Source of the DNA: Halichondria panicea
Taxonomy: Eukaryota > Porifera > Demospongiae > Suberitida > Halichondriidae
Direction: 5' to 3'
DNA: 64,000 nt
NCBI RefSeq assembly: GCF_963675165.1
Contig: NC_087377.1
Coordinates: 8,201,122 to 8,265,121, forward strand
Under the pieces are notes generated by a model. That model worked only from the letters and a program-made list of their open reading frames with translations, had not been told where the DNA came from and searched no databases. The position numbers and the translations under genes were made by a program. Position 1 is the first letter of the stretch, and every line of letters begins with the position of its first letter. Shown one piece after another: positions 57,966-64,000 of the stretch.

Positions 57966-60238
57966 CATTAAATTTGAGCAGATTTGGAGGTACTTCTATT
58001 TGTGCAACCTTGATCATCAGGTACCTAGAGGACAGCCAGGGCATAACAAGCTTTTCAGCTGATAGACCTAGTATCTGCGCCATTTGAATCGCCATATAAC
58101 GCTGAGCTCACAATAGATGACGCTATCCTTAGTGCACAAACAATTTAATACCACAATTTGTCTCACAATTGGCAGAGAGCCATAAACGTGCTCTAGATCG
58201 TTTTTATCATAACGACGTGTCAAGTTTATGATCAAGTTCAAGGGAGACTAGGTTTCAAGCAGTGTCTGAAAAACAAAAGGCTGTCAGTGCGTACAAATAA
58301 GGCGCATTCAGATCTACACGTTCTGCCGCAGCTGTTGACAAGCAACAGATGACCCCGGTGCCACAGCTAGAGTAGTATATTATACGGCCCGCTATAACCG
58401 GAAATCATTGTTCCTCAGCTTTTTGGGGGGCTGATATAGCCACCCTGTTTATTTTTTGACTACTATATATGTTGCTGAGGCCTCTACTGTACCCAAGGTG
58501 AAGCGCACAGCCTGTGATGGTAGTCGTACCTGCATGGGTGTGTACCCTCCTCTCATGCCTGTGACAAGTGGTACCACTGTGCTGCCATTCAGCGACTATA
58601 ACACATTGTATAGACAACTGCAATTAGATAGCAGGTTTTCGGTTTTCAATTCATGTATTGGAGCAATAAATAAATAAAATAAAAATACTGTATTTTTCTT
58701 TCTTGTAGAATTGCAATGTAAAGTAGAATTTCAAAGCCAAAATGTCACAAGTTGCACAGTGGTGCGGGCTCAAAAACTACCGATTGATTCTTTATCTACC
58801 ACATTAACTTTCATCAAATCAGCTCTTCATTGTACATGATCTTTCAGTCGTGATCTTTTCATGTTAACAATGACGTACAAGAAATTGCAAGGAGTATGTA
58901 ATTACAATATCTGTGTGATAAATGCTCCATTTGAGGTGAACATTTCAGGAGAATGTTCAGGTGGTGGGTGATGTATGATCGTGAACAGCAAAAAGTCAAC
59001 TACTTTGAGCTAAAGATGTCAAACCACACTGCAATTGACATTATTGTGAGCCTATGAGGGTCAAGTAATTACACGAAAAGAAGTTTTGTCGAAAATTATT
59101 GCAAAATTTTAACGCACTAATTCAGCGCTAAGTGGAATTACAGTTATGTGTTCGCTGGTTCGCTTGGGTTATTAGTGTAAAGATCATGATTAGGATTGCA
59201 GATAATTATTATAGACATACAATTAGTGATTAATTTGTATAAAGGTGACCTTGGCAGTCTGAAATGGAGTCAAGAGAAACAACAACACGGTGAACTACAT
59301 CATAAGTTCAAGGAAGGATCGAAAAGAAACTGAAAGATTTTGCTGTACGTAGTATTAAACGAGAATCGCCATCTGCATTATTCAGCTGCATTATTCAGGA
59401 AGAATCGTGCGCTCTGCCAGGAATCTATTGCGGTAGTCCACTGTAAATGGGAATCCCCTTTGCCAATAGAAATTAGATTGCTTAAAAACTGTCATTTGAG
59501 GAGAACAACACCACGTTTATCAGTGACCACTGCAAGAAACTGCACAGCGACAAACTACCAACTGTTGTCATTTGGAGGATGTCCTACTTAATTCACAGTA
59601 CGTGTATAATTATAACCGCTGGAATTTCTCTTTTTTGTGTTGGGTTTGTGCTCTTTTGCATCTATGAAAACAAAATTAATAATGAATATTCTGTCACGTG
59701 GTAGTCTCGTAGAAGCAGCCCTCAGGGGTTGACCACGCGCCACCATTCACGTGGCATTCCCAAGGTCTCTGCTCACGTTACCAAGTTCGGGACTATAATT
59801 ATAGCCAGATCAGATAAACTTTTTTGTAATACCATTGCTATAACCCCATGCACATGTTTAATTATCGATGCTGTTTCAATTACCTGAGAAAAAGTGTTTT
59901 GTAAACAAACGATCGCGAGCTGAAGATATTTAATTTCCATTCTCGAGAGTAATAGTATGGATTTTGAGTGTATTAGTGTAACCAAATACAAGGTGCTACA
60001 GGCACATGAATCCGGAAGCATCACATGCAATAATTCATCTTAAAACACTCTCTCAACTATTTTGACTTGGTCTCAACTACTTTTTGAATTGAAATAGACA
60101 TGTTTGTGGTAAAATTAACCACGAAATTGATGATAAACCACATTTCATACACACTCTTTTTACCTTTTGAAGAACATAGCAACAAAGGTCCCATAAATAT
60201 CTCTACTTTGAAAAGGTGTCAAACATTAAGCATTAAAA
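57966..60238. other. Unassigned, with a possible PHD relic near 58550
   Basis: At about 58551-58595 one frame reads HACDKWYHCAAI, similar to the Cys-x2-Trp-x-His core of a PHD finger, but stops surround it. Other short frames (58456-58677 and 59340-59591) have no known domain. No repeat borders are clear. Confidence 0.35.
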
Positions 60239-60341
60239 ATGTTAGTACATGATTTCAGCTCACAACAAAGGTACCAAAAAATTACATTGATTAAACTTTA
60301 CACTTTAAAGTTTTTGAACTCTCTACCTCAAACGTATACCG

Positions 60342-60812
60342 GGGACCCACGTGTGAGACCTTGGTTGAACCAAGGACCCACACTTTATCTTGATGCGCAA
60401 ACGAAGGACCCACGTGTGAGACCTTGGTTGAACCAAGGACCCACACTTTACTTTGCTGCGCCAACAAAAGACCCACGTGTGAGACCTTGGTTGAACCAAG
60501 GACCCACACTTTACTTTGTTGCGCCAACGAAGGACCCACGTGTGAGACCTTGGTTGAACCAAGGACCCACACTTTACTTTGTTGCGCCAACGAAGGACCC
60601 ACGTGTGAGACCTTGGTTGAACCAAGGACCCACACTTTACTTTGTTGCGCCAACGAAGGACCCACGTGTGAGACCTTGGTTGAACCAAGGACCCACACTT
60701 TACTTTGTTGCGCCAACAAAGGACCCACGTGTGAGACCTTGGTTGAACCAAGGACCCACACTTTACTTTGTTGCGCCAACGAAGGACCCACGTGTGAGAC
60801 CTTGGTTGAAAA
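60342..60812. repeat. 63-bp minisatellite, about eight units
   Basis: Each unit contains GGACCCACGTGTGAGACC, the perfect inverted repeat CCTTGGTTGAACCAAGG and CACACTTTACTTTG. Because 63 is a multiple of three and the unit lacks stops in several frames, long ORFs appear on both strands (60239-60889 plus, 60291-60848 and 60323-60982 minus). On the plus strand the repeat reads TKDPRVRPWLNQGPTLYFVA. I regard these as repeat artefacts. The array lies about 180 bp beyond the 3' end of the ParB-like gene. Confidence 0.9.
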
Positions 60813-60989
60813 AAGGCCGGAAACTGAAGATCCATAGTCATTATACACAGGAAATTAATCATGTAAGTATCACAATGCAATGGACATAGCTGAATCCTAA
60901 CCTTAAAGTCATACGTATAATGGGGTGTAACAATACTAAGATATGAACTTAAGCAATGTTGCAGGTAGCCGATAAATAGCATTAAATTT

Positions 60990-63957
60990 TTAAGCAGTAT
61001 CAGTTGCAGGTAGCAGTGATGCTACTTTCCGATAAATAGCTTGCTGGTTATCTTGAGACGGCACAATAGATACTATATTCCTCCCCAGAGTAACGGCTGT
61101 GTACGATATTAGCTCTGTATATGTAGGGATGCAAAATTAATTCATAGCAAGGTATACTAAAAATACCATACGTACCTTTCTCATTTCCGCTAGTAATGTC
61201 TAGCACCGTAGACCCAGCCACACACAAGTGAGAAATGAGATATTCATAAAGACAGGCTGAGTCGCCATCTACAAAGTTTAGTCTGTGGTCATTGGGTGGA
61301 TAGTCTAGCATCTCCTTGGCTGAAGCGTCTACTGCCGGGGTGAAAAAAGCAACAACTACAGCCTCCACGCAGGGTGTAAGGTATGTAGTGGTGCTTGCTG
61401 TAGAGACAAAATTAAATAATTGTACTGTACGATAAGAATGTACGTACCTTTTGCTATACTGGTGTTAGCAAAAAACAGCACTTCAGCTTTTCCAAAAGTA
61501 CGCCTCCATGTGTTCATTGTTGTCTGTTGGGCGTCAACAGGACATACACAGGCAACTACATACATGTAACAACCTAAAAAGGCATTGATCTCTTTTATGG
61601 TGTATGCGATACTCTCCATATTCTCACTGTGTGATGTTATAACTAGGTGGGCCCCTTCAAAAGACGGGTTTGCCTTTCTGATCATATTTCCCGAAATTAC
61701 TGAAATTTCTGTTACTAAAACATTCACAGATGCACCATTGACGATAATACTGGAAGCTGGTGATGCGTCGTCAGCTAAATAGCTTTTTGCCCGCTGGCAG
61801 AAACTAACGAAAGCTTTCGGAATCGTTTTTCGAATGTCGATGCCAAGAAATCGATTCAGCTGATCGTCAGTAGCAAAAGCGGGAAATTTGTCAACAGCTT
61901 GATCCCATGACTCAACATTTGTTAGTTTTGCAAATGCTGTTTTCAGAGCTGCTTTCTGCTTTAAATGAGTAGCAGCAGTCTGCAGCTCAGTCAGAGAGGT
62001 TTCCCCAGCTATAACTTTTTGCAGTAGTAAACACTGATCGCTAATTGGCAGCGTTCGAATAGGTGCCAAGTAGTTCTGCTTAAATTCGGGCTTCTGTAAT
62101 AGTGTCGACATTCTTAGCTTTTGTGCCTTTAGTTTCGACTGCTCGAACAGGTCCATTACCTGAACTACCAGGTCCCACACTTGCTTACGTAAGCTGGCTT
62201 GAGAGAACACATTATCCTTATGTGTGTGGGATATATCCTGCAAGGTATATATAACTTATTATAATACTCATTTCCTACATTCTTATAGTTTCAAAATAGC
62301 TGTTATGTGCAGTTGTAGTAAGCAGTATACAAGCTGACAAACGCATTTTCTTTTGTGCTCCTGAGTCTCAATTATACATACCTTTGGGAGAATAGCCATC
62401 TCGCAAGAGGTTTTCCAATCTTGCGACTGGGCTGGGGTTTCCATCGAGAGATCTATGTCATTCAATGCATATAGTCGAGAGCGACAAGCTTCTACCTATA
62501 CATGCATGTATACACATGGTTAATTAAGTGAAAGTAAAAGGTTGGCTGTAAAGCAAAACTATCACAACAATAAATATATTAGTTACTGACCAGATCGCGG
62601 TGTGTAACTCGGTGAACGAAATGTGAATTGTCGTTGTGCCTTGAAGCAAGGCGAAGTGATTCTTCATCACTGAGGCCGACGTAGACATCGGCAAGAGCCA
62701 CTGTGTAGTATGGGTTATCGGGATGCTCTGTTGCCAACTGATTTTTGCAAATTAAGCTATGCAATCCTCCTAGGACTTCGTACTCATATACGTTTTTGTG
62801 CTTAGCTTTAAATTCTCCAGAATTGTGAACACTAGTACACAAAACTGCCATTGGGCATGCACCTGGAGCAGAGGGGTCAGCAACCATCCTCTTTTTGAGG
62901 TGTCCCAAGAATGTTGAATCTGCTTCACGCAGTAGTCGTGATTTCTTTGGAGGAGCATGTAGTTGCGTTATCGGTAGTTCCATCACACCTTAGGGTTAAA
63001 AAAGACTCATCATACACTTCAGCAGCCATACAATCAAGGCACATACATAATGTCAAGAGTTCATTACGAAGAGTACGCAACTCCAATAGACTGTACACAA
63101 AAAGCATTCCTACAATCTGACATCACAGTAATACTGGCTGTATATAGTAACCGCAACTAGCAGAAGGCAATGAGTAACTATGTTATTCATTGCCTTTCCT
63201 ACTGGCAGTTGTAAATGAATAACATTAGTGATAATTATCACTAATGTTATTCATTGCAAATCTTGATAATGTACATGAATGCATTTATTATTACCTTTTC
63301 TAGCACTTTCAATTGCTTCGTCAATTGGCGCCTTGATAAATTTTCGTTTCTTTGTAGGAGAAGGTTGGTCGTACGGCAATATTTCGTTCGAAACAGCTGA
63401 AACTCTTGATGACTTTGGTGTTTTTGAAGTAGCATCCTTTGAAGTGGATGGAGGAGTAAGCTCAGCACTAGCAGAATGCCTCAATTTGTCCATAGGCTCA
63501 TTAGCTGTAGTCGCAAACGTATCCTGTAACTCATCCCATTTTTGAATGAAGTCGTAACTCGTAAGTATCCCCATGAAATTCGTAGAGAAACCCTTCGTGC
63601 AGTCATGGCGTTCCAGCTTCATAACAATCGTTCCAGAGGCACAATTGAACTGTGTAGACATTATAATTATGTAGAGCATGACTGTCACAGTAAAATTATA
63701 TACAACTTAGCTTATTACAAAATCACAAAATTACAAATTAAATTGAGGAGGATTAATTTGTAACTCACACGAACAGTGCTTGCTTGCTTTGGCCTCTTCT
63801 TGAATCTCTCCAAATCAGCTACGGTTGGTATAGTGATATCCATCACATTGCCCAAGTCTTTGTTGGCATTCACCTTCTTGATGAGCTCTCCATCACTGTA
63901 CACCAAGGACACACCATCCCCTGTACTTTCAAGATACCACTTCTTGGGCTTTGTCAT
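60990..63957 (-). CDS. ParB-like protein with methyltransferase-like C terminus, seven exons, about 770 aa
   Basis: Exons: 63769-63957, 63295-63649, 62591-63110, 62382-62495, 61448-62237, 61176-61397, 60990-61114, all with GT/AG borders and matching phases. The start is MTKPKKWYLESTGDGVSLVY. Exon 3 holds the ParB-like part: VMELPITQLHAPPKKSRLL, YEYEVLGGLHSLICKNQL, VYVGLSDEESLRLASRHND and HRVTHRDLVEA, the G-x-H and LA-x-RHN pattern of ParB/Srx-type domains. Exon 5 is largely helical. The end reads AGSTVLDITSGNEKELISYT, LGRNIVSIVPSQDN, which resembles the SAM-binding motif I of N6/N4 DNA methyltransferases (VLDxxSGxGT...GR), but GxGT is changed to GNEK. DNA binding and a possibly inactive methyltransferase fold are inferred. 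The only lesion is a one-base shift near 62990, just before MELPITQ, which may be an assembly error. Confidence 0.65.
63166..63255. repeat. Paired palindromes in an intron of the ParB-like gene
   Basis: 63214-63255 is a perfect 42-bp palindrome centred on GATAATTATC. Just before it, GGCAATGAGTAACTATGTTA...CATTGCC forms a second, imperfect one that uses the same TGTTATTCATT word. Both lie between exons 2 and 3, 3' to the exon 2 donor. Confidence 0.9.
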
Positions 63958-64000
63958 AATTATTCCGATCAGAGTAGAGGAAAGCTTTAGCTACAGCTAT
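63958..64000. other. Upstream edge of the ParB-like gene
   Basis: These are the last 43 bases, 5' of the minus-strand ATG. They are too short to judge the promoter. Confidence 0.3.

Follow-up and report, generated by a model that had tools for sequence, protein, structure and literature searches.

What kind of gene joins a ParB-like domain to a methyltransferase-like end, and what is it doing, spliced, in an animal genome? The gene in question occupies positions 60990-63957, on the minus strand, of a stretch of DNA of 64,000 nucleotides (the window; C1:8201122-8265121 of the host genome). A first-pass annotation of this stretch had left two origins open for it: acquisition and repurposing as a host gene, or an unstudied mobile element. 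The latter proved right, as seen from the terminal inverted repeats (TIRs), the target-site duplication (TSD) and a DUF7869 partner; the former is not what the data support, since the gene lies inside a DNA transposon bounded by these TIRs and TSD, beside a probable transposase gene. More precisely, this transposon is of the cut-and-paste type and encodes two genes, a divergent DUF7869 gene and, as its second, the one in question. That a spliced gene of this kind sits in an animal, as the annotation had also stated, is borne out by the gene model and by Wnt-family matches in the same genome (down to E=5.3e-54; 0 of 14 control genomes). Wnt is not known outside animals.

The gene is cargo of an 8,247-bp DNA transposon

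The borders of the element were located by aligning copies. It spans 8,247 bp (C1:8261165-8269411), starting at window position 60044 and extending beyond the window by 4,290 bp, and is hereafter called W, the window's own element. Its TIRs are 33 bp long and perfect (AACACTCTCTCAACTATTTTGACTTGGTCTCAA), and between them the components follow in a simple order: palindromic repeats, the DUF7869 gene (leftward), the ParB/methyltransferase-like gene (rightward), and palindromic repeats again. With up to 3 mismatches the TIR pattern of W occurs at seven sites in the genome, which form three pairs and one single. Besides W itself, the pairs delimit two copies: the C7 copy, with the TSD TAAC and a length of 17.3 kb including inserts; and the C8 copy, which is internally deleted to 1,715 bp, has the TSD TACA and is without either gene while keeping both TIRs.

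A second family is 47% identical to W in the ParB-like exon and comprises elements of about 9.8 kb (copy A, 9,805 bp; copy B, 9,822 bp). These have a TIR of their own (AACACATTCACTGTTAAAAGTTCC), and the TSDs read are AAGA for copy A, ATAG for copy E and ATAT for copy F. Copies E and F lie on different contigs and differ by less than 0.1% over stretches of 2,973 and 1,848 bp; this near-identity therefore points to recent movement of the second family. Taking the two families together, perfect 4-bp TSDs are present in six of the seven copies with both ends read. Of the features by which a cut-and-paste TIR DNA transposon is recognized, two were found: TIRs with TSDs, and dispersed copies with internally deleted derivatives.

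The divergent DUF7869 gene

The partner gene lies just past the window end, and its exons match Pfam DUF7869 (matches at C1:8266767-8267560; E=2.4e-35 and 1.5e-13); the second family shows the same divergent layout (DUF7869, E=1.3e-30). The DUF7869 protein has the pattern FLTLIIDGMDQ ... LQMDNTARENKN (the MDNTARENKN region) ... VGHTHEDVDQ, which, read by eye, looks like that of a DDE-type nuclease. This is the probable transposase gene. No paper on DUF7869 was found in the literature searched.

The genome has at least 57 exon-level matches to DUF7869. The family of the ParB/methyltransferase-like gene was grouped by hand into 22 loci, some of which are short fragments. A DUF7869 match lies within 15 kb in 12 of the 22 (two of these share one match) and is divergent in 11 of the 12, where chance would give about 0.7% per locus. 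Reading of four DUF7869 loci revealed no ParB-like exon. As several DUF7869 loci are without the gene, it is therefore an accessory of a subset of elements.

Two observations belong here. Five of the 22 family loci fall within about 0.17 Mb (C1:8262292-8433532), starting at the window gene, with several DUF7869 matches between them. At C2:4684738-4685220 (L048) an open frame of 683 residues holds a DUF7869 match, and no ParB-like exon was seen in the 10 kb covered there; this is a candidate for a domesticated or intron-poor transposase.

Structure and conservation of the gene

The seven exons with consistent phases that the first-pass annotation had proposed are confirmed: the spliced model runs from ATG (63957) to TAA (60990), all six introns are GT-AG, and the phases at the exon ends are 0/1/0/0/1/1. 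The motifs it had quoted are present as well, while the length of about 770 residues has to be corrected to 730 codons. For exon 7 there is a choice of two in-frame acceptors, separated by 18 nt, and VLDITSGNEKE requires the upstream one. In the host genome (131 Mb, 39 contigs) the 730-residue protein has 67 exon-level matches. Its relatives include the C7 copy, which is 95% identical, and other lineages with 36-47% identity in the ParB-like exon; in several loci the match borders recur at residues 181/182-316 and 314/315-353. Because relatives are conserved elsewhere in the genome and share match borders, the gene model is not a product of chance.

There are signs of purifying selection on the reading frame. 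The ratio of nonsynonymous to synonymous substitution rates (dN/dS) is 0.37 for exon 5 of W against the C7 copy (16 differences; none in exon 6) and 0.14 for locus M against locus N (3 differences), both values thus resting on few differences. In the ParB-like exon the synonymous sites of six between-lineage pairs are saturated, with dN of 0.24-0.78.

Database searches with the 730-residue protein gave no Pfam family match even at E<=10 and a single PHROGs match that is not firm (E=0.041). The PDB, searched by sequence, gave nothing firm (none for the whole protein; E=2.2 and E=1.1 for other queries), and no prokaryotic or viral relatives were found with exon 3 or exon 5 as query.

Exon 3 resembles the ParB N-domain

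The six ParB-like exons of the host genome align with 20 invariant columns, including Y67, Y69, E70, G73, G74, H76 and N118. In profile-profile comparison these six rows match eight ParB proteins with E=0.0032, a level that none of 200 column-shuffled profiles reached; with methyltransferases as a control the value was E=0.33, and with the profile reversed it was E=0.72. With seven rows and 12 ParB proteins the match improves to E=6e-4, with 76 columns in register and 0 of 100 shuffles as high. Homology of exon 3 to the ParB N-domain is thus supported by profile comparison, and with it the ParB-type block named in the first-pass annotation.

Single-family searches were less telling. PF02195 had no match among the six exon members and none in the whole genome at E<=0.001; DUF6551 of Pfam is matched by three of the six (best E=0.0034) and an NCBIfam entry by one of the six (E=0.04), neither being firm. 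An AlphaFold2 model of exon 3 alone, made without an alignment, has a predicted local distance difference test score (pLDDT) of 37; it is uninformative, and speaks neither for nor against the fold that the annotation had in mind. All six aligned members have the arginine of the P-motif GxxR replaced by S, T or G. In the ParB fold, exchange of this arginine for alanine abolished nucleoside triphosphate binding, according to PMC12704722.

The methyltransferase-like C terminus

The C-terminal blocks of W, A and two further lineages, J and K, match six N6/N4 methyltransferases with E=0.0015 over 42 columns around motif I, a score that none of 200 shuffles reached (ParB as control, E=0.39). For this value the terminal exons of lineages A, J and K had been chosen and joined by eye for their resemblance. 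The end of the protein likely corresponds to the C-terminal portion of an N6/N4 DNA methyltransferase, a weaker assignment than that of exon 3. It is likely and not secure because support drops without the eye-picked exons, so that the methyltransferase-like end of the first-pass annotation stands in this qualified form.

Canonical motif I of N6/N4 methyltransferases is DPFxGSGTT. The four lineages have DITSGNEK, DATSESG, DATESG and DATQSG in its place, and the glycine pattern is intact in none of them, in keeping with the changed glycines that the annotation had reported. The aligned motif II position, judged by eye, holds an acid in none of the four; in J two glutamates come directly after it. 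PF01555 has no match in the protein (Pfam, E<=10) or in the genome (E<=0.1). From these motifs, catalysis has probably been lost.

Palindromic arrays inside the element ends

In three lineages (W, A and J) a palindrome specific to the lineage recurs near both ends. That of W is a 22-bp, imperfect repeat of the AAGGACCCACACGTGGGTCCTT type, with six sites in an array of 52-bp units at one end and eight in an array of 63-bp units at the other. The palindromes of A (ACCTAAATTTAGGT) and J (GTACAAATTTGTAC) are 14 bp long and, at up to 2 mismatches, have 4+3 and 7+10 sites, where 0.055 (from shuffles) and 0.1 are expected, respectively. K has three sites at one end. The gene-less C8 copy retains both arrays, with four and eight sites; that it keeps TIRs and arrays without genes is as expected for sites needed in cis.

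A scan for recurring exact 14-bp palindromes was positive in five of ten element loci (A, J, K, M and N) and in one of ten controls, there a poly-A/T repeat. It missed W, whose repeat is imperfect, gave only a TACATG-type simple repeat in L014 and found none in L018, L022 and L045. Palindromes at both ends of M and N were considered and dropped: M is one-sided, and the second set in N is an inverted duplication. Locus N (L021 and L044; C1:15652029-15659154) is flanked by this perfect 1,402-bp inverted duplication, which is either a recent rearrangement or an assembly artefact.

Comparison with known systems

In PMC12477816 the Ectocarpus Sola1 transposon Sola1-1_Ec32 is described as encoding a protein of 1,104 amino acids with ParB-like and N4/N6-methyltransferase domains. 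Such proteins are cited there from green and red algal transposons too, and the algal proteins are suggested to bind and modify their own element. The likeness, compared by description only, is one of architecture: a single protein combines both domain types, and its gene lies in a DNA transposon, facing the opposite way to the transposase gene. The differences from this case are several: an animal host; DUF7869 in place of Sola1; 730 against 1,104 amino acids; and, in the element itself, the loss of the P-motif arginine, a motif I that is not intact, and palindrome arrays at the ends.

Phage fusions of a ParB-CTPase with an N6_N4 methyltransferase are also described (PMC12704722) and likewise join a ParB N-fold to a methyltransferase on a mobile element. 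In contrast to these, the GxxR arginine is S, T or G in six of six members here, and no prokaryotic or viral relative emerged via exon 3 or 5. Fungal DNA transposons, for their part, carry TET/JBP genes (PMC12730594) and are thus eukaryotic DNA transposons with a second gene of the DNA-modification type; theirs is a dioxygenase, however, and the transposase families named there exclude DUF7869. Among the matches listed in the literature there was no case of a transposon-borne ParB-methyltransferase in an animal, and an earlier description is possible. With this finding, transposon-borne ParB-methyltransferase accessory proteins would be known not only from algae but also from an animal and from elements of the DUF7869 type.

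In CACTA/EnSpm transposons a second element-encoded protein binds subterminal repeats, and clustered short repeats inside both TIRs are common to those elements and the present ones. Here, however, the TIR starts AACAC, the TSD is 4 bp, the partner is a DUF7869 gene, and the repeats are palindromes, of 14 bp in A and J and, in imperfect form, of 22 bp in W. Plasmid ParB pairs with parS or sopC centromeres; what is alike, as read from sequence, is that one mobile DNA encodes a ParB-fold protein and also bears a cluster of repeated sites. Unlike in plasmid ParB, no helix-turn-helix was detected in the window protein.

A possible role for the accessory protein

The explanation that we favour, and hold to be somewhat probable, is that the gene product is a non-catalytic DNA-binding or scaffolding accessory protein of the DUF7869 transposon, acting most likely on the element's own palindromes. 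We infer that both catalytic centres were lost across lineages and that the protein was kept as a DNA-binding or scaffolding factor. The layout of TIR, array, two divergent genes, array and TIR suggests that tasks are divided between cis and trans components. Cutting and joining would fall to the DUF7869 protein; the ParB/methyltransferase-like protein, in which no catalytic centre is visible, would recognize the subterminal palindromes of its own element and pair the two element ends, and might perhaps also protect the element by shielding its ends from silencing. As the catalytic positions examined are intact in none of the four lineages, selection may keep DNA recognition and not methylation. 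The lineage-specific palindromes are a set of candidate binding sites that is directly testable.

Tentatively, and as a rather unlikely reading, we also consider parS-like end pairing in an animal transposon. A ParB fold without its nucleotide switch and a dead methyltransferase serving as a sequence reader would then co-evolve with lineage-specific arrays (ACCTAAATTTAGGT, GTACAAATTTGTAC, AAGGACCCACACGTGGGTCCTT), and the protein would be a synapsis or segregation factor.

Several results weigh against a palindrome-binding accessory protein, in addition to those that speak for its rivals below. Regarding the transposon, copy B has no perfect TSD, the TIR search in lineages J and K gave nothing convincing, and a DUF7869 match is lacking within 15 kb at 10 of the 22 loci, including C6, M, N and the two on C4 (near 2.47 and 3.75 Mb). 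The ParB-like exon is deleted in copies E and F, yet both moved; the protein is therefore not needed in cis and at most in trans. Regarding the ParB-like domain, the seven rows compared with only the six plasmid and phage ParB proteins gave E=0.0027, with 1 of 100 shuffles higher, and a ParB helix-turn-helix in exons 4-5 was rejected (E=0.67, 26 of 100 shuffles as good). Regarding the arrays, M has three palindrome sites at one end only, and half of the ten sites in N stem from the inverted duplication.

As the main rival, the palindromes may instead be bound by the DUF7869 transposase, much as the subterminal repeats of CACTA elements are by a protein of those elements, with the ParB/methyltransferase-like protein acting elsewhere, for example against host silencing; we regard this as possible, if on the unlikely side. 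The TIRs and both arrays retained in the C8 copy would fit a cis requirement of the transposase, and it is in the ParB-like protein that no helix-turn-helix was found. However, in the four DUF7869 loci that showed no ParB-like exon, no 14-bp palindrome recurs within 10 kb, element borders not having been located there, and M and N have palindromes and the gene, with no DUF7869 among the matches listed within the 13 kb read.

It is unlikely that the C-terminal block is unrelated to methyltransferases, such that a ParB-like protein has some other tail whose motif-I resemblance is chance aided by the picking of exons. The exon-6 parts without the terminal exons chosen by eye reach E=0.033, with 1 of 100 shuffles higher, and the C terminus of the window protein alone E=0.046; motif IV is unsupported (E=0.51, 24 of 100 shuffles as good), and there is no Pfam match. 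Nevertheless, the motif I strand is precisely where the alignment falls, the block is present again in each of four lineages, and fusions of the two domains are known from phages (PMC12704722) and algal transposons (PMC12477816).

Less likely again is that this transposon cargo still works as a DNA methyltransferase, with motifs of an unusual type, methylating the element ends and thereby escaping silencing, as proposed for the algal proteins. The domain types and the orientation opposite the transposase match the Ectocarpus Sola1 case (PMC12477816), and the motif-I block aligns. Against such activity, across the four lineages the motif I glycine pattern is broken and the aligned motif II position has no acid (the two glutamates of J being next to it), and no motif IV was recognized. 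A host gene derived from bacteria and domesticated in this animal, with transposons landing in or next to it by happenstance, would account for the intact frame, the introns and the signs of purifying selection, but is unlikely in the extreme, as the gene sits inside TIRs with a TSD and its family occupies 22 scattered loci, several of them near-identical and 11 with the same divergent partner.

Feature coordinates and further loci

Table 1. Features of the gene and of the in-window part of its transposon (window coordinates)
Feature	Position	Strand	Basis
In-window part of the 8,247-bp transposon	60044-64000		copy alignment, TIR/TSD
TSD TTAA; other copy C1:8269412-8269415, beyond the window	60040-60043		read at both ends
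33-bp TIR; partner ends at C1:8269411 (window-equivalent 68290)	60044-60076		TIR pattern search
Subterminal array, 63-bp units x 7.4 copies, 8 near-palindromic CACGTG-centred sites (<=2 mismatches)	60343-60810		repeat scan
Exon 7 with LGRNIVSIVPS, closing the methyltransferase-like block; alternative acceptor 18 nt further in	60990-61114	-	profile comparison
Exon 6, methyltransferase-like block, degenerate motif I VLDITSGNEK	61176-61397	-	profile comparison
Exon 5, conserved middle region without assigned fold	61448-62237	-	genome matches, profile comparison
Exon 4	62382-62495	-	spliced gene model
Exon 3, ParB N-domain-like, YEYEVLGGLHS ... GLSDEESLRLASRHND, P-motif arginine replaced	62591-62988	-	profile comparison
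Exon 2	63295-63649	-	spliced gene model
Exon 1 (holds the ATG)	63769-63957	-	spliced gene model

TIRs or TIR variants were also seen in three other settings. Near C5:5548020 and C5:5159273 a TIR variant with 2 mismatches lies 2-8 kb from DUF7869 matches, with no ParB-like match listed nearby; these are possible related elements without the accessory gene. Over about 480 kb of C13 (C13:5504396-5982395) there are seven single, unpaired sites of the second family's TIR, all on the same strand and with a variant ending in common (AAAAGTTCG). Finally, at C3:1893821-1893869 (L053) two TIRs of the second family stand back to back, one base apart, so that two elements abut, end to start.

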